Assembly (NCBI RefSeq): GCF_016743215.1
Contig: NZ_VRZC01000001.1
Location: 1 to 54,921 of the forward strand
Source of the DNA: Geminocystis sp. GBBB08
GTDB lineage: Bacteria; Cyanobacteriota; Cyanobacteriia; Cyanobacteriales; Cyanobacteriaceae
Direction of reading: 5' to 3'
DNA length: 54,921 nt
Positions 27 through 31,648 of the stretch are shown here, piece after piece. The translations under genes were made by a program, and so were the position numbers. Each line of letters starts with the position of its first letter. Positions within the stretch are counted from its first letter, which is position 1. A model generated the notes under the pieces. It saw nothing but the letters and a program-made list of their open reading frames with translations, made no database searches and had not been told where the DNA came from.

Positions 27-755
27 TTAAAATTCCAGTGTTTGAGATAACTTACTATTAACAAGGGAAAAACGAACTAAACTTAAAAATATCTTCTGAT
101 AATGACTAAAATCAAGGTGAGTCGATAACTTGAAGGCTTTTTCTAGGGTTGGAGCAAGAATTTGTCAAGAAAGAAGGCGATCGCAGCTATAATCATAGAG
201 TTCTTTGGGGAAGAGTTGAGTAACGGATTGTAACAAATCTTGATAATTTTCTTTGATCAAAGAATCATTGAAAGGGAGATTAGAGGGCGATTCTACTGTT
301 TTTAGCTTAGATTTTGCCTCTTCCCATGATTTTAATAGCCAAGTTAAATTATCTTCAACATAATCAAGTAAAGGTGTATACTTTAAAGGTAACAAAAAAT
401 GTCGGTTTGTTGTGTTATTAACATTCCCCAATTGATTAATGACAAGATTTAACGTATAAAGACATCTAAGGGCATTTTTTACTTCTTCATTTTTTTCTGA
501 AGAATTAAAGGTGGAAAATTTTTCGGCGATCGCCCTTTGTGTAGGAATCAGCTTATCTGACTTAAAATATAATTCCGTTAAAGATACCAATGTTTTTATG
601 TCTGCTTTGACCAATAAAATACAAGTATCTTTTGTTATCTTTGGTTCAATAGTACATTTCTCCTGAAAATCTAATTCATCACTAACACAAAACAATAAAG
701 CACTCACTAATAACTGGGTATAATCTTTTCCCTTACCATAATTAGGTTTTGCCAT
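27..755 (-). pseudogene. Interrupted hypothetical protein (possible winged-helix fold), in-frame TGA
   Basis: The gene reads from an ATG at 755 as 196 residues to a TGA at 165-167. The same frame then stays open for 45 more codons to a TAA at 27-29. Those codons (beginning QILAPTLEKAF) continue the helical, leucine-rich character of the protein, so a 241-residue product cut by one nonsense codon is the simplest reading. I do not recognise the family. Residues 50-130 (LVSLTELYF, PTQRAIAEKF, VKNALRCLYTLNLV, NRHFLLPLKY) look like a helix-helix-wing arrangement seen in small winged-helix domains, which is inference. There is no signal peptide or membrane segment. It is divergent from the DGR target gene starting 370 bases away and could be its partner or simply a decaying neighbour. 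The 196-residue form may still be functional. Confidence 0.5.
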
Positions 756-1124: not shown

Positions 1125-3746
1125 ATGAATATCGGAGCTATAGTTACAACAGTCGCCAGAATAAGAGATGCTATTACCGCCGTTACATCCCTAATAAATC
1201 AAAGTCGCAATATTGCCAATCAAGAAAGATCTCATGCTTTAATGTTAAAAGGAGATAGCGATAACCTACAGCTAGGCATGAAACGTACGGAATTTGATGC
1301 CAAAATGGAGATGATGCGTCAAGCTGTAAGAGCTAAAGAACGTCAAGAAGAGAAGGAATTTAGTCTGCAACTTAAGGCTATAGAGACAGAAAATTTATTC
1401 AAACTAGAAGGACAACGCCAAGCATTTCAATCCCTTGAAGCAGAGAAACAACGGGAATTTACCCAGAGTATCGAAAAATTCAAAGCTGAGGTACAAATCG
1501 TCCTCCAAGCTGATAATATCGCCTTTCAACGTTGGAAAACCGAAACCGATCGCCAATTTACCCTCGAATTAAGAGCATTAGATGCGCAAATAATGCGACT
1601 GCGGGATAAACAAAACCGAGAAGATGCCAGACGTGATCGCAATAGCCCTGTTTTTTCTGTAGCCGATGATATACTCAAAACTGTCACTAATAACTCCGAA
1701 ATGCCTCTTACTGTCTTCTTTTCTTCGCCTGTATTACGTTACGATCCGATTCCTAATGCTACCACTAACAGTCAATTTCCCATGATGGAATCTACTGTTT
1801 CGGGTGCTTTAAGAGAAATGTTTAAGCAATATACCTTAAAACAGCGCCCCATTAAATTTATGGCAGGAGAATGGGGTACAAAAAACCGTCGTGCTGAATC
1901 AGCAGTAAACCAAATTTACAGAGATTTATACTCTATTCCGGTCATTGTCTTAGAAACCGAAGTAGAAGAATCATACTTTAACATTAATATCGGGTTTTGG
2001 AATAACGACTTTAACGATGTACGCTTTGAAACCGTAGTGCGTAAGTACCGTTGGCAAGATGCGATCGCCCAAATTTGTCAAGAATTAGCTCAAAAATGGC
2101 AACAGCAAGGGCGACAACTTCAAACAAACTATGACAAAGCCCAATTTAGTCGTCGTAGTCGAGAAACCTTTACTCAATATATGGAGGTATTGCACTGTAT
2201 TCATACGGGCATGGTAGCCGATGAATATTTCTTGATTTATGCACCCCAGCGTCAGTTACCCCTTTTACCTAGTTTACTGCAAGATTTATTTGAGGAAGCC
2301 AATCTCTCTCAACAGGAAAGCGAAGCCTTAGAAAAAGCCGTAATTGACTACTGCAATGCCTTATTTTCCGCTTTAGAAGCCACTGAACCTGCTCTCATGG
2401 TAGAATTGCGTATCGGTTGGGCAAAAATCTTACAGCAACTTCCCTCACAATATGGTTTTGCGGAGCAAGTACAAGCTCTAATGAAAACATGGTTAAAACA
2501 ACGGGGTATTACTAACAGTATTGAGCCTCTAACTGAGATTAGTAAAATGTTGCTCCCAGAAGATACAGATTTTGTCCAATCTCTCAATGGTTTCTTGCAA
2601 GTGTTAGGAGAAACCCGTTATCTCAATATTGCTCAATCTTGTTTTCAGCGCGGAGTTGAACATATACAAGCACAACGTTATGATTATGCTCGTACTGACT
2701 TTGATCGCACTATCTCCCTTAATCCCCATGTAGAGGCTTACCACCAACGGGCTATAGCTCATTACGGATTGGAAAATTACCAAAATGCCATCGCCGATTT
2801 AGACAAAGCCATCGCACTGCAACCCCATCGTGCGGAATTATACGATTTACGGGGGGATGTTTACCACAAATTAGGTAACTATGAATTAGCCTTAGCTAAC
2901 TATAACCAAGCCGTCAGTTTAGGACATTCTAGTAATAAACGGGATAACTTACAACAGCAATGGAATGACACCCTTCGTCATGAACAAGAAGAGCGTAAAC
3001 GCAAGGAAGCAGAAGCCGCTCGTAAACGAAAAGAGGAAGAAGATCGTCGTCGTGCCTTAATTTTACCCTTACCGAATAACCAAACCCTAAAACTTGTCTG
3101 GATACCCAAGGGTACCCTCAAAATGGAAGGAGGACACACCATTAACCTATCCGAGTTTCGTATGGGTAAATATCCCGTCACCCAAGCCCAATATCAAGCC
3201 GTCATGGGTAACAATCCCTCCCATTTCCGAACCTCCCCCAATCACCCCGTTGAGAATGTAAATTGGTTTCAAGCAAACGAATTTTGCAAAAAACTGACTG
3301 AATACCTGAAAAAACAAGGTTTTAACGTCAAAATCGACCTCCCTAGCGAAACCCAATGGGAATATGCCTGTCGTGCTGGAACAACGACCAAATATTGGTT
3401 TGGTAACAACGAAAACGAGCTCAAAAAACACGCTTGGTATAAAAATAATTCAGGAGATACAACCCATAGCGTCAAAGAAGCCGAGGATACTCATACCAAC
3501 CCTTGGGGCTTAGTAGATATGCACGGTAACGTGTGGGAGTGGTGTAAAGATGAATGGACTTCTAATGTTAACCAACTTCCGACAGATAGTAGTACTTATA
3601 AACCTAATAGTAACAATAATCAAATATGTAGTTTGCGTGGTGGTTCTTGGCTCTACGATAGTAACAGTTGTGCTTCTGGCGACCGCTATTACTACAATGC
3701 GCGTGTCGTCCACTACTACTTCGGTTTTCGTATTGTCTGTGTATAG
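1125..3746 (+). CDS. DGR target protein: coiled coil, unknown domain, TPRs, FGE-sulfatase/C-type-lectin-fold domain with variable C-terminus
   Basis: The 873-residue protein has no signal peptide and is probably cytoplasmic. Residues 1-170 are highly charged and predicted as long helix/coiled coil (for example KAKERQEEKEF-like heptads around 80-170). Residues about 175-490 form a globular region I do not recognise (motifs RPIKFMAGEW and FNINIGFWNNDF). Residues about 505-605 carry three TPR-like repeats (YDYARTDFDRTISLNP, YQNAIADLDKAIALQP, YELALANYNQAVSLG). A KRKEEEDRRR-rich linker follows. From about 645 to the end is a formylglycine-generating-enzyme/sulfatase-modifying-factor domain (MGKYPVTQAQY, LPSETQWEYACRAGT, GLVDMHGNVWEWC, LRGGSW, GFRIV). 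This is the C-type-lectin fold used by DGR targets. The last 38 residues match the DGR variable-region pattern, and an avd gene follows 174 bases later. AGGAG lies 7 bases before the start. The fold and DGR role are well supported; the ligand is unknown. Confidence 0.85.
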   Translation: MNIGAIVTTVARIRDAITAVTSLINQSRNIANQERSHALMLKGDSDNLQLGMKRTEFDAKMEMMRQAVRAKERQEEKEFSLQLKAIETENLFKLEGQRQAFQSLEAEKQREFTQSIEKFKAEVQIVLQADNIAFQRWKTETDRQFTLELRALDAQIMRLRDKQNREDARRDRNSPVFSVADDILKTVTNNSEMPLTVFFSSPVLRYDPIPNATTNSQFPMMESTVSGALREMFKQYTLKQRPIKFMAGEWGTKNRRAESAVNQIYRDLYSIPVIVLETEVEESYFNINIGFWNNDFNDVRFETVVRKYRWQDAIAQICQELAQKWQQQGRQLQTNYDKAQFSRRSRETFTQYMEVLHCIHTGMVADEYFLIYAPQRQLPLLPSLLQDLFEEANLSQQESEALEKAVIDYCNALFSALEATEPALMVELRIGWAKILQQLPSQYGFAEQVQALMKTWLKQRGITNSIEPLTEISKMLLPEDTDFVQSLNGFLQVLGETRYLNIAQSCFQRGVEHIQAQRYDYARTDFDRTISLNPHVEAYHQRAIAHYGLENYQNAIADLDKAIALQPHRAELYDLRGDVYHKLGNYELALANYNQAVSLGHSSNKRDNLQQQWNDTLRHEQEERKRKEAEAARKRKEEEDRRRALILPLPNNQTLKLVWIPKGTLKMEGGHTINLSEFRMGKYPVTQAQYQAVMGNNPSHFRTSPNHPVENVNWFQANEFCKKLTEYLKKQGFNVKIDLPSETQWEYACRAGTTTKYWFGNNENELKKHAWYKNNSGDTTHSVKEAEDTHTNPWGLVDMHGNVWEWCKDEWTSNVNQLPTDSSTYKPNSNNNQICSLRGGSWLYDSNSCASGDRYYYNARVVHYYFGFRIVCV
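3630..3746 (+). repeat. DGR variable region (VR) at the 3' end of the target gene
   Basis: The segment encodes SLRGGSW, then L-Y-D-S-N-S, C-A-S-G-D-R, Y-Y-Y-N, A-R, V-V-H-Y-Y-F and GFRIVCV. Invariant blocks (LRGGSW, C-S, R, AR, GFR) alternate with runs of variable residues exactly as in cyanobacterial DGR targets, where the template has AAC/AAT asparagine codons. All 17 codons in the variable runs end in C or T, as expected if only the two adenines of an AAY template codon were mutated; two codons (AAC, AAT) remain asparagine. The cognate template repeat is not in this window, so the adenine-mutation reading is inferred from codon pattern and family knowledge. Confidence 0.8.
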
Positions 3747-3791
3747 TTTTAGGACTCCTTTACCCTTTACCCTTTGCTCTTATTCCCCCTA

Positions 3792-3818
3792 TCTCTTATC
3801 CCCCCTAAAAATAAGAGA
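3792..3818 (+). other. Inverted repeat downstream of the DGR variable region
   Basis: Eight-bp perfect arms TCTCTTAT (3792-3799) and ATAAGAGA (3811-3818) flank an 11-base C-rich loop, 45 bases after the target stop codon. Characterised DGRs such as Bordetella phage BPP-1 use a hairpin/cruciform just 3' of the variable region for efficient retrohoming. This one is farther away and has a longer loop, so it could equally be a transcription terminator or mRNA structure. Confidence 0.4.
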
Positions 3819-3920
3819 GAAGAGTCTTTGAGAGGGAGGAATGAAAAAGAATAAAAGGAGGAAGGGAGATAGAAATTAAGTGTTTGAGAACTATATTTAA
3901 AGCAGGGAAAATCTATATTT

Positions 3921-4235
3921 ATGACAGAACCGCCAATTATTCAAAAAACCTATAATCTAATTAAATGGTATATTCCCATTCTTAATAATTTGCCAAGAAA
4001 TCATAAATTTATGTTAGGCGATCGCCTGATTAATGGATTATATGATCTTTTAGAAAATTTAATTGCCGCTCGTTTTGCATCAGAAAAAGTGACAATTTTA
4101 ACGCAAATTAATTTAAAATTAGATATTATTCGTTATCAAACCAGATTGCTTTATGACTTTGAACTAATTAAAGTCGATCGTTATAATTATGGGAGTCAAT
4201 TATTAAAGGAAATTGGTATAGATTTAGGAGCATGA
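3921..4235 (+). CDS. avd: DGR accessory variability determinant (Avd, four-helix bundle)
   Basis: This 104-residue, largely helical protein begins MTEPPIIQKTYNLIKWYIPI and contains NLPRNHKFMLGDRLINGLYDLLENLIAARF and LDIIRYQTRLLYDFELI motifs typical of the bAvd/four-helix-bundle family. In DGRs, Avd forms a basic homopentamer that binds the retroelement reverse transcriptase and template RNA and is required for mutagenic retrohoming. The gene lies 174 bases after the target's variable region in the same orientation, the usual target-avd order. The expected next elements, template repeat and RT, are missing: 10 bases after the stop a convergent ABC permease gene ends. Family assignment is confident; Avd-like proteins also occur without DGRs, but here the adjacent variable region makes the DGR role likely. 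Confidence 0.88.
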   Translation: MTEPPIIQKTYNLIKWYIPILNNLPRNHKFMLGDRLINGLYDLLENLIAARFASEKVTILTQINLKLDIIRYQTRLLYDFELIKVDRYNYGSQLLKEIGIDLGA

Positions 4236-4245
4236 TAGTATTTAT

Positions 4246-5136
4246 TTAGGCAAAACGACGACTTAATAACGGTTTTATTGACAGTAAAATTACCACATCA
4301 AAAATGAATAATAATGATAAAACGGTGACAAAATTAAAATTTCCCCAAGGGGTATTCATTACAATACTGACAAAATTCCAATGAGGATTTTGATATATAT
4401 AGCGTATCGGCTCAATGGCATAGGTTAAAGGGTTTAAACTAGCTATAATTTGCAACCATTCTGCCATGAATGACAATGGTGCTAAGGCTGTACTCGCAAA
4501 TAAAAGGGGTAAATTAATGACAAAAATAACGGCTAGTAATTCAATATGCCCAGGTAAAGCGAAGGCAAATCCAAGACTTAATCCGGTTACGCCTAATACG
4601 ATCAAAAATACTATTAAAGCGATGGCAATTAATCCTCCAAAACGAGGCAAACCTGCCCCAATAAAGGCACTGGCGGTAATAATAACGGCGGTTTGAATAA
4701 AACTGAGGCTAATAATATAAATAGTAGAAGCGGCAACGATAGAAAAACGAGAGGCTAATGGTGCTACTAATAGTCTATTTAAAAAACCAAATTCTCGATC
4801 AAACATGATAGGTAAACCGGCATTTAATGCCCCCGAAAAAGCAGTAAAAATAATAATTCCAGGGGCTAAAAATTGTCCATAGGTAAGGTTATTTCCGAAT
4901 AAACTGGGTGGGGCTTGGTAAAATAAAGCACCAAATAAAATTAGCCACATAAATGGTTGAATAACTCCGGCTACAAGGCTAGAAGGGCGACGTTTTAGCT
5001 GAATAAATAAACGTGTAGTTAAGGCTAATGTTTCTTGAAAAAAGTCTCTAATAGCATTATTTTTTATTTCTATTTGAGTCTCTGAATTAGGAGCTAAAAT
5101 TTCGGTAAACTGATTTGGTAAAATACTCTGAGTCAT
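4246..5136 (-). CDS. ABC-2 type transporter permease (DrrB-like)
   Basis: The 296-residue integral membrane protein has a short cytoplasmic N-terminus followed by about six hydrophobic segments (around 52-72, 90-112, 133-160, 168-195, 205-225 and 265-285). The central APGIIIFTAFSGALNAG and FDREFGFLNRLLVAPL segments are typical of the ABC-2/DrrB family. It would form the channel of an exporter with the ATPase encoded 77 bases upstream on the same strand. Substrates of this family include lipids, drugs and polysaccharides, and nothing here identifies the one used. The gap to the ATPase gene is filled by an ATTCCTC heptamer array. The start at 5136 gives a full-length family member. It converges with avd. 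Confidence 0.9.
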   Translation of the reverse strand: MTQSILPNQFTEILAPNSETQIEIKNNAIRDFFQETLALTTRLFIQLKRRPSSLVAGVIQPFMWLILFGALFYQAPPSLFGNNLTYGQFLAPGIIIFTAFSGALNAGLPIMFDREFGFLNRLLVAPLASRFSIVAASTIYIISLSFIQTAVIITASAFIGAGLPRFGGLIAIALIVFLIVLGVTGLSLGFAFALPGHIELLAVIFVINLPLLFASTALAPLSFMAEWLQIIASLNPLTYAIEPIRYIYQNPHWNFVSIVMNTPWGNFNFVTVLSLLFIFDVVILLSIKPLLSRRFA

Positions 5137-6440: not shown

Positions 6441-8330
6441 TTACACTGAAACAGTAGTTTTGCGACGACGACGAGTAAATTTATTATCGCTTTCTTCTTC
6501 TTCTTTCTGATTATCAGCTTCAGAAATATTACTGTTACCATTATTATTCCCATTTATTGTTATGGCTTTAGGAGTATTTTCAGGAATTTGTAGCATAAAA
6601 ATAACTAAAGGTTCGCTATCCAATTCTCGTTGAATCAATCGCCCTAAGTTTGTCTCAACATCGATGCGAATACTTGTCCAATTAACTTCATCATGACCAT
6701 TTAAGAGTAAACTACTTTTAAGTCGATCGATAATAGTTTTATCAATAGTACGAATAATCATACGCTCAAGAGTAGTAATTTCAATTTTACAAACAACACC
6801 ACGTAAATTAATTTGGGGTTGAGTTAATAAACGCCCTTGATTATCAACACTAGCGGCAATGGTAATAACTCCATCTTCAGCTAACTGTTGGCGCTCTTCC
6901 ATTACGTTATCATGGACAACTCCAGAGGTATCAACTAATTGAATACCAGAAGGCACTTTATCCCCTTTGCGAATACTATCCGCCGTTAATTCAATGGTGT
7001 CACCATTTTGAATAATGACAATATTTTCCGCAGGAATGCCGACACTTTGCGCCGTTTTTGAGTGTTGTACTAACATTCTATGCTCACCGTGTACAGGTAT
7101 AAAAAACTTAGGTTTAGTTAAGGCTAACATCAATTTTTGATCTTCTTGGCAACCATGTCCAGAAACATGAACACCTGCTTGTTTTCCATAAATTACATTT
7201 GCCCCTTGCATCATCAGGCGATCGATAGTATTGACGACAGGTATAGTATTACCTGGAATCGGATTAGCAGAAAAGATAATTGTATCACCAGCTTTGACTC
7301 TTACCTGACGATGTTCACTGCGAGAAATTCTTGTCATGGCGGCAAATTTTTCTCCCTGAGAACCAGTGCAAAGAATTAAAACCTCATTATCTGGTAAACT
7401 ACCTAATTGGCGTAACGGCACAAATAAATTATCTGGTACTTTAATATATCCTAAGTTACGAGCATGAGCTATTACATTTAACATCGATCGCCCTACAATC
7501 CCTACTTTGCGATTATGCTTTAGTGCCAAATCTAATAAGATATTAACTCGATGCACAGAAGTAGCGAAAGTTGTTACCATTAAACGCCCTTTCGCTTGAG
7601 TAAAAGCACGATCTAATCCAGGATATACTGCTTTTTCAGAGGGAGTAAAACCAGGCACTTCTGAGTTAGTAGAATCACCTAAGAGACATAATATCCCTTC
7701 TTGTCCTAATTCTGCTAAACGGTGTAAATCGAAATACTCATTATCTACAGGAGTATGATCTATTTTATAATCTCCTGTGTGAATTAAAACACCGATGGGG
7801 GTATGAATAGCAAGAGTGAAACTATCAGCGATAGAGTGAGTATTGCGGATAAACTCGACTTTAAAATGCTTCCCAATTTTAACAATTTCTCGGGGAAGTA
7901 CTGTTTTAATAATAGTACGATCTTGTAACCCTGTTTCTTCTAATTTATCTCTTAATAGTGACATAGCAAGACGAGGACCATAAATTATTGGTGTGTCAAT
8001 CTGTTTGAGGTGATAAGGAATACCCCCAACATGATCTTCATGCCCATGAGTTACAATCATCCCTTTAATCTTGTGTTGATTTTCCTTGAGATAAGTCATA
8101 TCAGGTAAAACAACATTAATACCGTGCATTCCATCTGTCGGAAAACCGATACCAGCATCCACAAGGATAATTTCATCTTCATATTCATAGATACAAGTAT
8201 TTTTACCAATTTCGTGTAAGCCACCGAGGGGAATTACTTTTAAAAGAGGCTTATTATTTCTTGCCGGAAGAATAATTGCTGGTTTTTCTGTGGCAGTAGT
8301 TTTTCTTTTTCTAGCTTGAATTTGATACAT
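6441..8330 (-). CDS. rnj: Ribonuclease J
   Basis: The 629-residue metallo-beta-lactamase/beta-CASP ribonuclease works in 5' to 3' exonucleolytic and endonucleolytic mRNA decay and rRNA processing in the cytoplasm. The zinc-binding motif is VTHGHEDHVGG near residue 83, followed by GDYKIDHTPVD, the beta-CASP region (MVTTFATSVHRVNIL) and FIPVHGEHRMLVQH. The C-terminal domain is present. The last 40 or so residues are low-complexity (asparagine/glutamate, then TRRRRKT), a cyanobacterial extension that could bind RNA or partners. It lies downstream of dapA and asd on the same strand, an order often seen in cyanobacteria. The 447-base gap to dapA suggests its own promoter. Confidence 0.96.
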   Translation of the reverse strand: MYQIQARKRKTTATEKPAIILPARNNKPLLKVIPLGGLHEIGKNTCIYEYEDEIILVDAGIGFPTDGMHGINVVLPDMTYLKENQHKIKGMIVTHGHEDHVGGIPYHLKQIDTPIIYGPRLAMSLLRDKLEETGLQDRTIIKTVLPREIVKIGKHFKVEFIRNTHSIADSFTLAIHTPIGVLIHTGDYKIDHTPVDNEYFDLHRLAELGQEGILCLLGDSTNSEVPGFTPSEKAVYPGLDRAFTQAKGRLMVTTFATSVHRVNILLDLALKHNRKVGIVGRSMLNVIAHARNLGYIKVPDNLFVPLRQLGSLPDNEVLILCTGSQGEKFAAMTRISRSEHRQVRVKAGDTIIFSANPIPGNTIPVVNTIDRLMMQGANVIYGKQAGVHVSGHGCQEDQKLMLALTKPKFFIPVHGEHRMLVQHSKTAQSVGIPAENIVIIQNGDTIELTADSIRKGDKVPSGIQLVDTSGVVHDNVMEERQQLAEDGVITIAASVDNQGRLLTQPQINLRGVVCKIEITTLERMIIRTIDKTIIDRLKSSLLLNGHDEVNWTSIRIDVETNLGRLIQRELDSEPLVIFMLQIPENTPKAITINGNNNGNSNISEADNQKEEEESDNKFTRRRRKTTVSV

Positions 8331-8777
8331 AATTTTCTTAATTATTTAACTTTTTTGGATAGATTAATTGTAGGGTGGGCAATAATGCCAATATTTTTGA
8401 CTAATAGTTATTCTTAGGGCGAATATTATTACCATTTCTAACTATTATTTTTTAGAGGTATATTACCAACATTAATGACTTTCAAAAATTATCTTTTTTT
8501 ATTGGTAATTGATAGTTGTTTGAGGGATAAACTAAAAATTATAAACAGGCTTAATAATTGTAAAAATTAATTTTAATAACTAGATAAATATTCAGTAAAA
8601 TCGGGAAAACAATTACTTTAGTTAAATATAAAATTTAGGGGCGGTGCATCGCCTTATTAACATTTATCCATGATTATTAACCTCCTCAAATAAAAACGAT
8701 TTATCATATCTCTTTCATTGACTGAAAAACTTTTTTTAACTGCTTTTAAATAATCTTAATTTCATTAACATGACTAT
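8331..8777. other. Intergenic region between dapA and rnj
   Basis: These 447 very AT-rich bases hold no credible coding region. There is a fragment of the dispersed GTAGGGTGGGCA repeat at about 8370-8381 and a GGGGCGGTGCATCGCC fragment near 8637-8652, which recurs as GGCGATGCACTACCT near 15719 and as TTATGCACCGCCCAC near 21948. It probably contains the rnj promoter and leader, but no clear -35/-10 pair stands out. RNase E-type leader elements could not be recognised. Confidence 0.6.
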
Positions 8778-9671
8778 TTATAATAAGCCCAAATTTTGTA
8801 AATTTTTTTTAACTTCCTCTTGTTGATTAGGAGTTAAATTTGTTAATGGTAATCTCAAACTACCCACATCCCAACCTTGTAGTTGTAGGGCATATTTGAC
8901 GGGAATAGGGTTGGTATTGCAAAATAAAACCTTGAATAAACTATACAATTGTTCTTGAATTTTTTGAGCTAAAGAATTATTCCTATTTTCGTAGGCTTGA
9001 ATCATGGTTTGAATTTCTTTGCCAACTAAATGACTTGCGACACTAACAACTCCAACACTTCCTACCGTCATCATCGGTAAAGTTAAAAAATCTTCTCCTG
9101 AGTAAATAAAAAAATCGGAAGGAGCAATTATTTTTATTCTAGCAGTTTGTTCTAAATCTGCACTAGCTTCTTTTATTGCTACTATATTATCTAAATCCTG
9201 TGCTAATTGAGCAGTGGTTTCCGCTTCTAAATTTTTACCAGTCCTTCCGGGTATATTATATAACATTATCGGCACATCAGGATTAGATTTAGCAATGGCA
9301 CTAAAATGTTGATATAATCCTTCTTGAGGTGGTTTATTATAATAAGGTACAACTTGCAATGAACCATCAATGCCTATTTTAGAGGCTTTTTGAGTATCTT
9401 TAATCGCTTTAGCGGTAGAATTTGAACCCGTACCCATAACTATTTTAGCACGATGACCCACCGCATTTTTAACCACTTTGAGTAATTGATATTTTTCGTC
9501 ATCTTCAAGAGAAGGAGATTCGCCCGTAGTGCCACAAATAACTAAACCGTCACTACCATTATTAACCAAATGATCGGCTAATTTTTCAGCAACACCATAA
9601 TTAACAGATAAATCCTCATGAAAGGGTGTCACCATAGCGGTTAAGACTCTACCAAAAATATAATCACTCAT
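8778..9671 (-). CDS. dapA: 4-hydroxy-tetrahydrodipicolinate synthase
   Basis: This enzyme condenses pyruvate with aspartate semialdehyde in the diaminopimelate/lysine pathway in the cytosol. The N-terminus FGRVLTAMVTPF, the ICGTTGESPSL loop, the tyrosine in MLYNIPGRTG and the Schiff-base lysine in NIVAIKEASAD are all present. I place the start at the ATG at 9671 (MSDYIFGRV, 297 residues); the frame extends three codons further to a TTG at 9680. It lies on the same strand as asd, the preceding enzyme of the pathway, but a Uma2 gene is interposed, breaking the usual asd-dapA adjacency. All expected catalytic residues are intact, in contrast to asd. Confidence 0.97.
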   Translation of the reverse strand: MSDYIFGRVLTAMVTPFHEDLSVNYGVAEKLADHLVNNGSDGLVICGTTGESPSLEDDEKYQLLKVVKNAVGHRAKIVMGTGSNSTAKAIKDTQKASKIGIDGSLQVVPYYNKPPQEGLYQHFSAIAKSNPDVPIMLYNIPGRTGKNLEAETTAQLAQDLDNIVAIKEASADLEQTARIKIIAPSDFFIYSGEDFLTLPMMTVGSVGVVSVASHLVGKEIQTMIQAYENRNNSLAQKIQEQLYSLFKVLFCNTNPIPVKYALQLQGWDVGSLRLPLTNLTPNQQEEVKKNLQNLGLL

Positions 9672-9858
9672 TATTATCAATCAACGGAAGGTTTAAGTAG
9701 GGAACATTGCCCATAATTTAGAATATTATACAATAAACGGACATACGAGAAGTCTCTTAAATAATGTTTTAGTTAAATGCTCAATGAATTATACTGCCCT
9801 AGGCAAAGGGTAGCTGTACAACTTTTGCATAACAGAATCTTAAAAAGATTTTAAGCCC

Positions 9859-10407
9859 TTAACACATTAATTGTTCAACGTTTATGATTATTTGAGGAAA
9901 AGAAAGAGGATTGATGATACCTGTTGTTAAAGTTAATTCAGAAGTGTAATTATTATTTTTGAGATCCCTAAATACTTTTAATTGGGAATTTTTTAAATCC
10001 ACAACCCAATATTCAAGAATACCAGATTGTGCATAAATATCTTTTTTTTCCCCTAAATCTTGATTCAACGTAGTTTGAGAAAATTCAATAATCCAAAAAA
10101 TATCTTCAGGGTAAGGATGATGTTTAAGATATTCTTTCCCTAAAGGTTTTACTATAGCAATATCTGGTTCTGGTTCGGAATTATTGGGGAGTGTAATGGG
10201 TTTAGCATCTCTAATTTTAGCTTTATTTCCTAATAAATTTCTGAGATAATCTCCTGCCTCTGTATTATAATAAGCATGAAGCTCTCTTTCCGGTGACATA
10301 ATAATAATTTCTCCTCTTAATAATTCTACAGATTCACCATCAAATATGCCCTTATCAATAGCGTTATGATAATGTTCTGTTGTCCATTTATAAGTAGTTA
10401 AAGTCAT
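9859..10407 (-). CDS. Uma2 family protein (DUF820, PD-(D/E)XK nuclease fold)
   Basis: The protein is 182 residues if started at the ATG at 10407 (MTLTTYKWTTEHY); the frame extends eight codons further. It has the Uma2 pattern: an N-terminal LLRGEIIIMSPE, then NSEPEPDIAIVKP, then WIIEFSQTTLNQDLGEKKDIYAQSGILEYWVVDL. This family has a restriction-endonuclease-like fold with acidic metal ligands (D in EPDIAIV, E in IIEFS) and is greatly expanded in cyanobacteria, often in mobile or repeat-rich positions. Its biological role is not established. It sits between asd and dapA on the same strand and looks like an insertion into that conserved pair. A second member is at 21964. Confidence 0.92.
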   Translation of the reverse strand: MTLTTYKWTTEHYHNAIDKGIFDGESVELLRGEIIIMSPERELHAYYNTEAGDYLRNLLGNKAKIRDAKPITLPNNSEPEPDIAIVKPLGKEYLKHHPYPEDIFWIIEFSQTTLNQDLGEKKDIYAQSGILEYWVVDLKNSQLKVFRDLKNNNYTSELTLTTGIINPLSFPQIIINVEQLMC

Positions 10408-10713
10408 AATATTCAACTTTTTTTTGAACAATTTTTTCGTGAATCAATATAATCTAAAATTATTTTTTCCAGATTATTCATATCAAGGATAAATCATTAA
10501 TATTGATAAAGTCTAATCAACTTTGTGTTAAAGATTCTAATGGAGGAGTTTATAATTCATTAATGGGCGAACTCCAGAGTAATATTACCAAAATGTTTTG
10601 ATAATAAACCCCATAAGCACTCGACTTGGAAAAGATCATCTTGTAAATATATTTTGATTAATTCCTCTGACGAATAGTTAATACCTGCTAGTAATTCAAC
10701 ACATTAAAATTAA

Positions 10714-11727
10714 TTAGTTTTTTTCGTTTATCAATAACTCCGCAATTTGCACTGCATTTAACGCCGCACCTTTACGAATTTGATCACCGCATAACCATAA
10801 CTCGATGGCATTTGGGTTAGAAATATCTTGCCTAATTCTACCTACTAAAACATCATCTTTTCCAGTGGCATCTATAGGCATAGGAAAATAATTTTTATCC
10901 CAATCTTCTAATAATTTTACCCCCAAAGATTGAACAATAATTTCTCTTGCTTTATCTATAGAAAAAGGTTGCTCAAATTCAAGATTAATCGCTTCAGAAT
11001 GAGCTCTTAATACAGGCACTCTCACACAAGTTGCACTAATACGCAAAGAATCATCATGGAAAATTTTACGAGTTTCATTAACCATTTTCATCTCTTCTTC
11101 ACAATAATTATTATCAGTAATAGGTGAATTATGAGGAAATAAATTGAAAGCTAAAGGATAAGGCAACACTTCTGCTACAGGATTTTCTCCTTTTAAAATG
11201 GCTTGAGATTGAATTTTTACTTCCTCCATCGCCCTTGCACCTGCACCACTGGCAGATTGATAAGTAGAAACTATAATTCTTTTAATAGGCTGAATTTGAT
11301 GTAAAGGATAGATAGCAACCCCCATTAAAATAGTTGTAAAATTAGGGTTAGCAATGATTCCTTGATGGGTTAAAGCATCTTTAGGATTAATTTCAGGTAC
11401 AACTAAAGGAACGTCAGGATTCAGGCGAAAAGCACTAGAATTATCAATCATCACTGCACCTGATGAGACTATCGTATTCGCCCAGTGTTTAGAAGTCGAG
11501 CCTCCTGCGGATGCTAACACTATATCAACATCTTTGAAGGAATTTTGCTCAACAGCTTGAACTTCGATTAATTCGTCTTTAAAGGCTATTTTTTGCCCAG
11601 CCGAGCGAGGAGAAGATAATAATTTTAATTCTTTTATCGGAAAATTACGCTCAATCAATAAATCAATAATTTCTGTACCAACTGCCCCCGTTGCCCCTAA
11701 AATAGCAACATTAACTTGATTAGACAA
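10714..11727 (-). CDS. asd: Aspartate-semialdehyde dehydrogenase, catalytic cysteine replaced by phenylalanine
   Basis: The 337-residue protein matches cyanobacterial Asd along its whole length: GATGAVGTEI nucleotide-binding loop, LASAGGSTSK, IDNSSAFR, YQSASGAGARAMEE, NETRKIF, VRVPVLRAHSEA (catalytic His) and GDQIRKGAALNAVQIAE. Asd makes aspartate semialdehyde for lysine, threonine and methionine synthesis. The active-site motif, normally NPNC(T/S)TI with the acyl-forming cysteine, reads NPNFTTILMG here: residue 130 is Phe, codon TTT at 11338-11340. A single G to T change from TGT would explain it. As family knowledge, loss of this cysteine abolishes activity, yet the gene is otherwise undamaged and usually single-copy and essential, so a sequencing error must be considered. 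Downstream are a Uma2 gene, dapA and rnj. Confidence 0.95.
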   Translation of the reverse strand: MSNQVNVAILGATGAVGTEIIDLLIERNFPIKELKLLSSPRSAGQKIAFKDELIEVQAVEQNSFKDVDIVLASAGGSTSKHWANTIVSSGAVMIDNSSAFRLNPDVPLVVPEINPKDALTHQGIIANPNFTTILMGVAIYPLHQIQPIKRIIVSTYQSASGAGARAMEEVKIQSQAILKGENPVAEVLPYPLAFNLFPHNSPITDNNYCEEEMKMVNETRKIFHDDSLRISATCVRVPVLRAHSEAINLEFEQPFSIDKAREIIVQSLGVKLLEDWDKNYFPMPIDATGKDDVLVGRIRQDISNPNAIELWLCGDQIRKGAALNAVQIAELLINEKN

Positions 11728-28829: not shown

Positions 28830-29814
28830 TTATGTTGTTTGAAAAATATTTTGAATCATTTGTTTATCTAAATTTATGGCAATTTTTTCTAATTCTGTTA
28901 CTTGGGCTGAAGATAAACGCCAACCTAATGCACCAATATTCTCTCTTGCTTGATGTAAATTTCTAGCCCCTGGAATTGGAATTGTACCTTGACAAATACA
29001 CCAATTTAGGGCAACCTGACTCATGGTTTTTCCGTTATTTTTGGCGATCGCCTCTAAAGTGTGTAATAAAGGTTGAATTTTCGGTAATAATTCCTTAAAT
29101 AAACCTTTTCTCGGTCCTGATGGTAAACTATTTAAGTCTTGATATTTACCGGTTAAAATACCCAAAGTCAGAGGGCTATAAGCAATAATTTTAATGTCTA
29201 ATTCCTCACATAACTGTTTTAATCCTAACCTCACCAAAGGATAAGTAGATAATAAAGAATATTGCACTTGTAAGGTACTAATTTTTACCCCCTGTTGTCG
29301 TAAATATTCAGAAGCTCGTTGTAAATTTTTTGGTCCATAATTAGATAAACCAATCCCTTTTACCAATCCTTGATGATATAACTGTGCCAACCCCTCCCAT
29401 AATGGTTTTTCTTGCCAAGGGAAGTATTTTGCGGGAGACCAGTGCATTTGAACTAAATCTACGGATCTTCCTAGTCTTTTAGCTGATTTTTCACAAGCCT
29501 TAATCATGGATTGAGGAGTTAAACGCCAAGGATAAACCGCTAATTTTGTGGCAATGGCAACTTCATTTTGATGATCTCCTCTGTATTCTCTAGCAAATTT
29601 ACCTAAAAGAGTCTCACTGCGTCCATTTAATTTACCCGTGCCATAAGAGTCACCTGTATCAAACCAAGTTACCCCTTGAGATACATGAAGATTGAATACT
29701 TGCTGTAATTCTTCATCCATTGTCATCTCATAACCCCAAAGAAACCGATTACCCCAAGCCCATGTGCCACAGCCGATGGGAGAAAGTAATAAATCGTCAG
29801 CTACTCTTATTAAA
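28830..29814 (-). CDS. Aldo/keto reductase, exon 2 (gene split by a group II intron)
   Basis: This is the main part of an NADPH-dependent aldo/keto reductase: LIRVADDLLLSPIGCGTWAWGN, FDTGDSYGTGKLNGRSE (catalytic Asp and Tyr), IATKLAVYPWR (Lys), LVQMHWSP (His), GIGLSNYGPKNL, IAYSPLTLGILTGKY and the C-terminal cofactor region IPIPGARNLHQARENIGAL. Read alone, the frame starts at a GTG at 29831, but those first codons lie inside the intron's domain VI. The natural start is the short exon 1 at 32454-32476. Joining exon 1 to this exon restores one frame, M-T-M-M-E-S-K-I-L-I-R-V-A-D-D, for a 335-residue protein. The substrate is unknown. Expression would depend on intron splicing. Confidence 0.92.
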
Positions 29815-29848
29815 GTAGGAGTAGCCGTCACCGACTAAACCTCTCTAC

Positions 29849-29882
29849 GAACCGTGCATGAAACTTTCACTTCACACGGCTC
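29849..29882 (-). ncRNA. Group II intron domain V
   Basis: On the minus strand the 34 bases begin GAGCCGTGTGAAG and end CATGCACGGTTC, pairing GAGCCGTG with CACGGTTC around an internal GAAA-type loop. This is the catalytic hairpin and best-conserved group II signature. Confidence 0.93.
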
Positions 29883-29896
29883 TTTAAATTATGCCT

Positions 29897-31648
29897 CTAT
29901 GGAGTACAAATCACTGCGTTTTTACTTCTACCTTTAAGGCTTCCGTCTGTTGCAGTTTTACTATCGTGACAATGTCGATGAAGTAACTGTAGATTAGTGT
30001 TTTCGTTTCCTCCTCCTAGTGATTTGGGGATAACGTGGTCGATTTCTACTATGTCACCATCTTTTAAATATAATCCACAGTGGTTACATTTTCCTTTTTG
30101 TCTCTTCATTAGACTAGCTTTTTGATTTGACATTTCAGGATGCTTACCTAAACGACTACACCAATACATTAAATCTCCATCAAAAAGGCTTTTATTCCCT
30201 TTGACTTTGACGTGTCTGACAATGGGGGTATCAGCGTGTTTAAGAAGTTTGTATTTAATACTGCCCTTTTCTTGAGTTCCAAAACACCAGTTTCTCATTT
30301 TTCCGTTAGAATAATCTGATTGCCAATATTTGTCTGCTACCCATGATTTTGACTTCTTAGGATGTCTTCTTTCACTCCATCTCTTAAGTTGTTGATATAT
30401 AATATGATCACAATGAGAATAAGTTTCTTTACTACAGACTGAGCTATAATAATTACTCCAACCTCTGATTATCGGATTTAATTCCTTAATCAACACCTCC
30501 TGTGGAGATGATTTGTGCCTTCTTATGACATCGCCAATCTTTTTGAGATGAGATTTTACTTTACTTTCAGAAGGTTTTATGATAGTCTTGAATCCTAATT
30601 GACTTCCGTTTGTCAATTTACCACTATGACATTTACCCACTGGGTACTGTCTAATGTTAAATCCAAGAAAATCAAAACCAACTTGTCCCTTATGCTCCAA
30701 AAGTGTGTGGGATATTTTGGTTTTACTCGGTTTTAATTCTAGTCCTATTTCTTTCAACCAGTTTTCCATAATTACTTTACATTGCAGAACTACATCTAAG
30801 TCTTTGTGCAGGATTAAAAAATCGTCTGCATATCTTATTAGATTAGGAGTTTGTTCATTGTGTACCTTTTTACCCTTTAAAGTTCTGGCGTATTTCTTGA
30901 CTTCTAATTCCATACCGTGTAAGGCTATGTTTGCCAATAAGGGTGATATGACTCCTTCTTGTGGTGTGCCTTTGTCAGTAGTAATTAACATTTTATTATC
31001 CAAAACTCCATTTTTTAACCATGCTTTCACTTGGTTTGTTAGGGTGGGATAAGTACCTAATTTAGTTAGTAATTTATTATGGTCGAAATTATCAAAACAC
31101 CCGCTAATATCCGCATCTAAAACATATTTTGAGTTAATTTTTATTGAATTGAATATCGCTTGTATGGCATCATGACAGTTTCTAGCTGGTCGAAATCCGT
31201 AAGAATTTTCCTCGAAAGTTGCCTCCCATTGTGGCTCTAAGCCTAGTTTGACTAATGCTTGTAATGCTCTATCTTTTATGGTGGGTATTCCTAAACCTCG
31301 TTTTTCTCCGTTGGCTTTTGGTATCCATACTCTGCGTAACGGATGGGCTTTCTTGCCTACCTTCAGATTATTCACGAGTTCGAGTCTTTGTTTCGATGTG
31401 AGAGACTTTTTACCATCCACTCCTGCCGTCACTTTTCCTTGATTGTCTTGAGTTACTCTACGAGTTGCCCAAAGTTTCCCATAAAACGATGAGATTAGTA
31501 ATCGTTGTAATTTGTGTACTAATTTGACATTGCCACTTTGACTTGCTTTGAAAATGCGCTTCTGTAATCTGAACACCGCAATCTCTACGACTTTCCAGTC
31601 GATTTGATTCCAGAAATTCATTTTATCGATAGATTTTACCTTCGTCAT
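29897..31648 (-). CDS. ltrA: Group II intron-encoded reverse transcriptase/maturase with HNH endonuclease
   Basis: This 583-residue protein has the RT-0 to RT-7 blocks of intron-encoded proteins: AGVDGKKSLT, RRVWIPKANGEKRGLGIPTIKDRALQALV, NSYGFRPARNCHDAI, YVLDADISGCFDNFDH, TPQEGVISPLLANIALHGME, and LIRYADDFLIL with the catalytic YADD. These are followed by GFDFLGFNIRQYP and the maturase X domain (LNPIIRGWSNYYSSV). The C-terminus has a zinc-type HNH nuclease (CNHCGLYLKDGDIVEIDHVIPKSLGGGNENTNLQLLHRHCHDSK) that cleaves target DNA. All modules look intact, so the intron may be able to splice and retrohome. It is unrelated to the Avd/DGR reverse transcriptase type (no DGR RT motif set) and cannot be taken as the missing DGR enzyme. 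It starts at the ATG at 31648. Confidence 0.97.
   Translation of the reverse strand: MTKVKSIDKMNFWNQIDWKVVEIAVFRLQKRIFKASQSGNVKLVHKLQRLLISSFYGKLWATRRVTQDNQGKVTAGVDGKKSLTSKQRLELVNNLKVGKKAHPLRRVWIPKANGEKRGLGIPTIKDRALQALVKLGLEPQWEATFEENSYGFRPARNCHDAIQAIFNSIKINSKYVLDADISGCFDNFDHNKLLTKLGTYPTLTNQVKAWLKNGVLDNKMLITTDKGTPQEGVISPLLANIALHGMELEVKKYARTLKGKKVHNEQTPNLIRYADDFLILHKDLDVVLQCKVIMENWLKEIGLELKPSKTKISHTLLEHKGQVGFDFLGFNIRQYPVGKCHSGKLTNGSQLGFKTIIKPSESKVKSHLKKIGDVIRRHKSSPQEVLIKELNPIIRGWSNYYSSVCSKETYSHCDHIIYQQLKRWSERRHPKKSKSWVADKYWQSDYSNGKMRNWCFGTQEKGSIKYKLLKHADTPIVRHVKVKGNKSLFDGDLMYWCSRLGKHPEMSNQKASLMKRQKGKCNHCGLYLKDGDIVEIDHVIPKSLGGGNENTNLQLLHRHCHDSKTATDGSLKGRSKNAVICTP

Follow-up and report, generated by a model that had tools for sequence, protein, structure and literature searches.

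A target gene and avd of Geminocystis sp. GBBB08 as a probable remnant of a DGR without reverse transcriptase and template repeat

Near one end of a contig of Geminocystis sp. GBBB08, a gene for a lectin-like protein ends in what resembles the variable region (VR) of a diversity-generating retroelement (DGR) and is followed by an avd gene, with neither a DGR reverse transcriptase (RT) nor a template repeat (TR) beside them. This arrangement raises the question of whether the target is still rewritten by components encoded elsewhere or is what remains of an element that has lost them. The window, here the whole stretch of 54,921 nucleotides that was analyzed, lies on contig 111 (81.7 kb) of a 4.10-Mb draft genome with 325 contigs and 99.9% completeness. 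We consider it likely that the locus comprises the target and avd of a cyanobacterial DGR whose RT and TR were removed by a rearrangement joining the end of avd to the flank of a permease gene.

The target gene and its variable region

The target protein consists of a coiled N-terminus, a middle part assigned to no family, TPR repeats at about residues 503 to 600, and a C-terminal FGE-sulfatase/C-type-lectin domain (Table 1). The best solved relative of this VR-bearing domain, by sequence, is TvpA, the DGR variable protein of Treponema denticola (2y3c, E=1.3e-34); its N-terminal architecture differs from that of the present target, and, unlike this locus, it belongs to a complete DGR. An AlphaFold model of the target (six sequences) had a mean pLDDT of 52.9, too poor for use. 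The N-terminal ~500 residues are strongly conserved in the target family, match no Pfam family, and may constitute a new domain tied to DGR lectin targets. Directly upstream, a divergent gene encodes an EAD4 (effector-associated domain 4) protein, a domain belonging to conflict systems in which FGE domains and DGRs also occur (PMC7159879). PADLOC returned no match for the target, the avd, or the EAD4 protein.

Table 1. Coordinates of the features at the locus, elsewhere in the same genome, and in related genomes (window positions unless a locus label is given)
Feature	Location	Strand	Remarks
EAD4 protein gene	165-755	-	PF19959
Target gene, probable former DGR target	1125-3746	+	873 aa, reading frame intact
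Conserved N-terminal region of the target family	1125-2630; L128:9983-12667; L125:9992-12604; L124:6181-8784		
FGE-sulfatase/C-type-lectin-like ligand-binding domain	3129-3737	+	Carries the VR; PF03781 at aa 669-871, 129.8 bits
DGR VR	3633-3743 (core 3651-3722)	+	NNY codons flanked by the invariant blocks LRGGSW and GFRIVC
avd accessory gene	3921-4235	+	104 aa; NF033474, 121.2 bits; PF22296 bAvd
Rearrangement junction (proposed)	4230-4245	.	Last DGR-homologous bases ...GATTTAGGAGCATG meet the native sequence flanking the ABC permease gene on its 3' side
ABC-2 permease gene (DrrB-like)	4246-5136	-	Conserved native neighbor, outside the DGR
Group II intron, maturase RT with HNH domain	29809-31648	-	RF00029 at 29809-29884
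Retron-type RT, same genome	L021:473-1615	-	Contig C3
Intact Roseofilum DGR	L077: target 7209-9962; avd 10057-10407; RT 10404-11462; TR 11484-11594		
DGR with an RT interrupted by TGA (G005)	L080:13287-14859	-	
DGR RT fragment (G158)	L166:6362-6487		42-43 residues

The pattern of invariant and variable blocks that a sequence-only reading had described at the 3' end of the gene was confirmed: the last 37 codons carry the invariant blocks LRGGSW, C, R, and GFR.VC around runs of NNY codons (LRGGSW...C...R...GFRIVC). Codons ending in C or T make up 23 of the 24 in the VR core, compared with 54.5% in the remaining gene (P=1e-5), the sole non-NNY codon being GCG (Ala); the earlier count of 17 such codons out of 17 is correct for the variable runs. 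This VR aligns codon for codon with the VRs of intact DGRs, and between species the VR of the target family is hypervariable. The Geminocystis genome encodes three FGE proteins besides the target, one of which (at C32) uses CTA, TCA, GAA, AAA, and GGA codons in the VR-equivalent columns. The assignment of the downstream gene to avd also held, as its score for the NCBIfam Avd model (NF033474) lies above the cut-off of 80 bits; it is the only avd in the genome.

The search for a reverse transcriptase and template, and the junction at the end of avd

Five RTs are encoded in the genome, four of the group II intron type (QGGVISP or EGVISP with Y.DD) and one of the retron type, and the DGR RT motif IGNLTSQ (IGxxxSQ) is absent from all of them. 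The retron RT, of the Ec67/TIR anti-phage type with 380 aa, apparently comprises the RT domain only. Using the DGR RT protein of Roseofilum as a query against the Geminocystis genome gave no match at E<=1e-25. In agreement with the earlier statement that no DGR-type RT could be found in the window, the only RT gene there (29897-31648) encodes a group II intron maturase, and a group II intron was also the sole find with Rfam.

A 111-bp pattern in which each position could be either A or the base present in the VR, and which tolerated as many as three mismatches, matched the VR alone in the whole genome. This test is sensitive, since over 80 bp the TR/VR pairs visible in intact cassettes differ by 0 to 1 non-A mismatches (at L098, L103, and L106, which have an RT, the short flank fetched contained no such pair). 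A template scan of the 81.7-kb contig reached at best 87 of 111 compatible positions, against a chance mean of 59 (s.d. 6), and revealed nothing template-like. Weak genome BLAST matches of the VR, considered as possible templates, were short chance matches. With the contig scan, the genome BLAST, and the pattern search all negative, the absence of a second VR copy from the window is corroborated, and the template-like copy that the sequence-only reading had proposed to look for anywhere in the genome, as a check on rewriting in trans, was not found, a result that speaks against such rewriting. Thus, of a functional cassette the assembly holds a VR-bearing target and an Avd, and lacks a DGR RT and a matching TR; a remote target would have its TR and RT at another site of its genome, and the assembly contains neither. 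The parts present are collinear with those of an intact relative and break off in the remainder, as in a decayed or partial DGR.

This intact relative, in Roseofilum acuticapitatum BLCC-M154 (G047, L077/L128), has the order target-avd-RT-TR, and its target shares 50% amino acid identity with that of Geminocystis over the full length. Its RT has 352 aa, with the motifs IGNLTSQ and YVDD and a start that overlaps the end of avd, and its TR fits its VR at 97% of positions. The Geminocystis avd matches that of a member of the same family (G005) through ...GATTTAGGAGCATG and diverges afterwards, the homology ending after codon 103, and the native flank of the ABC permease starts about 10 bp further on. 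Consistent with this, the encoded protein is 11 to 12 aa shorter than those of its relatives (115/116 aa, in an alignment with G005 and G047), and the 10 bases reported earlier between avd and the convergent ABC gene are exact (4236-4245, up to the permease stop). The DGR segment consequently meets native sequence at the exact point where the RT would be expected to start.

On the permease side, DNA homology with three genomes of the same genus (G001-G003) sets in immediately beyond the permease stop, at 4233-4240, and the genes for the permease, an ATPase, RNase J, and dapA keep the order that they have in other genomes of the genus. In four of four such genomes (G001-G004), the 3' side of the permease is occupied by a secreted ORF of 110 to 116 aa and then cysS, both named from their sequences and not by family search. 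The sequence ATGAT at the junction is also present in the G001/G002 flank, a microhomology that is only suggestive as a trace of the joining event, and the repeats near the junction are limited to short simple ones. Because the contig starts at window base 1, the left end of the DGR segment is beyond view. Since the avd homology stops and the native permease flank follows, these observations support the view of the locus as the 5' portion of a DGR that was severed where avd ends, with the RT and TR beyond the cut.

Recurrent loss and hypervariable orthologs

A survey of 149 genomes of the order (E<=1e-15) yielded 45 avd loci: 31 with an adjacent DGR RT, 11 without one, two with a broken RT (G120 and G153), and one at a contig edge (G037). 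The RT-less loci are those of G000 (the present genome), G016 (a second avd), G048, G061 (two, one of them ~0.5 kb from its contig end), G085, G086, G117, G122, G129 (a second avd), and G134; G016 and G129 also have an intact DGR elsewhere in the genome. Early avd stops (profile end <=101) were found in 8 of the 11 RT-less loci and in none of the 31 with RT (Fisher p=1.4e-6). The target frame, on the other hand, is intact at 10 of the 11, the exception being one locus in G061. Intermediate states were also present. The RT of G120 is internally deleted with its TR kept, the avd of G122 is fused to an RT fragment, and G005 retains a TR and two VRs, its RT gene being broken by one TGA that stems either from inactivation in the recent past or from an error in the sequence of this 67%-complete MAG. 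On the avd tree the relics do not group together, with 11 changes for 11 relics; many of its branches are weak, and the well-supported ones force at least four separate changes. Distant RTs in the relatives (E of 1e-25 to 1e-32) were rejected as DGR RTs, having QGxxxSP motifs where checked.

Closer orthologs of the target, with 71 to 72% amino acid identity over the full length, occur in Kamptonema UHCC 0994, a Nostocales MAG, Anabaena UHCC 0187, and an uncultured bin, and neither avd nor RT was found near these four. Including Dolichospermum LEGE 00240, five ortholog genomes (G155-G159) showed no DGR RT save one fragment in the uncultured bin, located without an adjacent avd or target, which is a trace of a lost DGR. 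Between Anabaena UHCC 0187 and uncultured bin-073, nucleotide identity is 75.3% in the VR and 94.8% in most of the gene, and nonsynonymous change between close relatives reaches 0.54 per codon in the VR versus 0.06 elsewhere. Furthermore, VR differences between orthologs fall disproportionately on codon positions 1 and 2 (p down to 5e-7). The Nostocales MAG and Dolichospermum have most of the 3' part of the VR in common, with an identity of about 89% elsewhere. Diversification is therefore real in the target family, because the VR is far more divergent than the rest of the gene in genomes without RT; it took place either before repeated RT losses or by means of an RT that the cell has since lost or carries only at times. 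The strongly diverged VRs of these Nostocales orthologs also indicate that an RT-less state does not mean that a target was never diversified.

Competing explanations and significance of the locus

According to the favored explanation, the RT of a whole element would have made A-directed errors when copying the TR RNA, and the mutated copies would have been transferred by retrohoming to the 3' end of the gene with the lectin domain, generating the NNY-codon VR. A rearrangement would then have fused the end of avd directly to the sequence 3' of the ABC permease gene, removing the RT and TR, after which the VR could no longer be rewritten. The intact target would most likely be retained as a TPR/lectin binding protein of fixed specificity, with the shortened avd as a passenger. 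Since the RT and template are missing from the assembled genome, the receptor is probably frozen; the VR would be static today, and the target protein would still be in use.

The sequence-only reading had left the choice between a remote target served in trans and a relic. The relic is favored by the avd truncation at the junction, the absence of a DGR RT and template, and the recurrence of such losses, and rewriting in trans finds no support inside the assembled genome. The components could also reside on a plasmid or mobile element that is outside the assembly or was lost before it, with the chromosomal target still being rewritten, and such a plasmid could be missing from the data because the genome is a 325-contig draft. 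DGR RTs of the same clade (66 to 71% identical) are indeed carried by plasmids of Anabaena sp. 90, Fischerella, Nostoc UHCC 0926, Microcystis FD4, and Acaryochloris; the hypervariable VRs of the five genomes without DGR RT, in which codon positions 1 and 2 are changed more than expected, would agree with it; and activity in trans from another locus is reported for DGR 4/5 of Thiohalocapsa PB-PSB1 (PMC10907252). However, no TR from the examined cassettes or plasmids is a suitable template for the orphan VRs, the best being 80% compatible compared with 97 to 100% for true pairs. Moreover, G157, G158, and G159 each hold a single match to the VR pattern and no TR, the viral contigs contain neither a VR/TR pattern match nor an avd relative, and an avd truncated at the junction suits loss rather than design. 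We thus regard continued rewriting in trans as unlikely.

It is highly improbable that the absence of RT and TR is an artefact in which a DGR contig was misjoined with the ABC-transporter contig. TR/VR repeats can break assemblies, and this one is fragmented, but the RT gene would then be expected on another contig, where none was found. The short simple repeats near the junction, the collinearity of the permease region within the genus, and the similar losses in genomes of few contigs (three in G122 and five in G134) also argue against a misjoin. FGE proteins are common here, and the C-terminus might be imagined as a naturally variable domain of that family outside any DGR, next to avd by coincidence. 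This is extremely improbable given the NNY codons of the VR core, the excess of changes at codon positions 1 and 2, and the concentration of nonsynonymous change in the VR; the adjacent avd stands in the canonical order, a relative belongs to the complete Roseofilum DGR with its TR, and the FGE protein at C32 uses non-NNY codons in the same columns.

Partial loss of a DGR is thus the preferred reading, an ordinary mechanism that is well supported at this locus. The target domain (FGE/C-type-lectin) and the avd family are shared with chromosomal and plasmid DGRs described in cyanobacteria, from which the present locus differs in its missing RT and TR and in the 3' cut of avd (PMC7517822). Vallota-Eastman et al. 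(2020) reported DGRs on plasmids, remote targets, and one gene of Nostoc that retains remnant TR-VR homology although no RT lies close by; they proposed that the diversification parts could be removed after selection of a good variant (PMC7517822). Like the present target, all3226 of Nostoc PCC 7120, an example of a remnant or remote variable protein, has a VR-like C-terminus and no proximal RT (PMC7517822), but that strain has two DGRs elsewhere, whereas the Geminocystis assembly has none, and the present locus additionally keeps avd and has a located loss junction. Dore et al. (2024; PMC10907252) also described DGRs that are incomplete, of which some are served in trans and others were disrupted by structural change. 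Among them, DGRs 3 and 7 of Thiohalocapsa PB-PSB1 resemble the present locus in that structural change has left a target with no intact RT/TR; the population in question also contains intact variants, whereas no intact copy is known here.

The Geminocystis locus is a clean further case of an incomplete DGR, with its junction located and its recurrence counted. We tentatively raise the possibility, which we consider doubtful, that a target with avd and without RT is a recurrent, selected end state, in which the receptor is locked in or is rewritten only when a plasmid with matching RT/TR visits. Together, the junction, the intact relative, and the graded losses within one order (RT nonsense, RT deletion, avd-RT fusion, and avd only) allow the retention of a receptor after loss of its mutator to be asked directly. 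That nearly all RT-less targets remain intact while most avds erode fits the published suggestion of part removal (PMC7517822).
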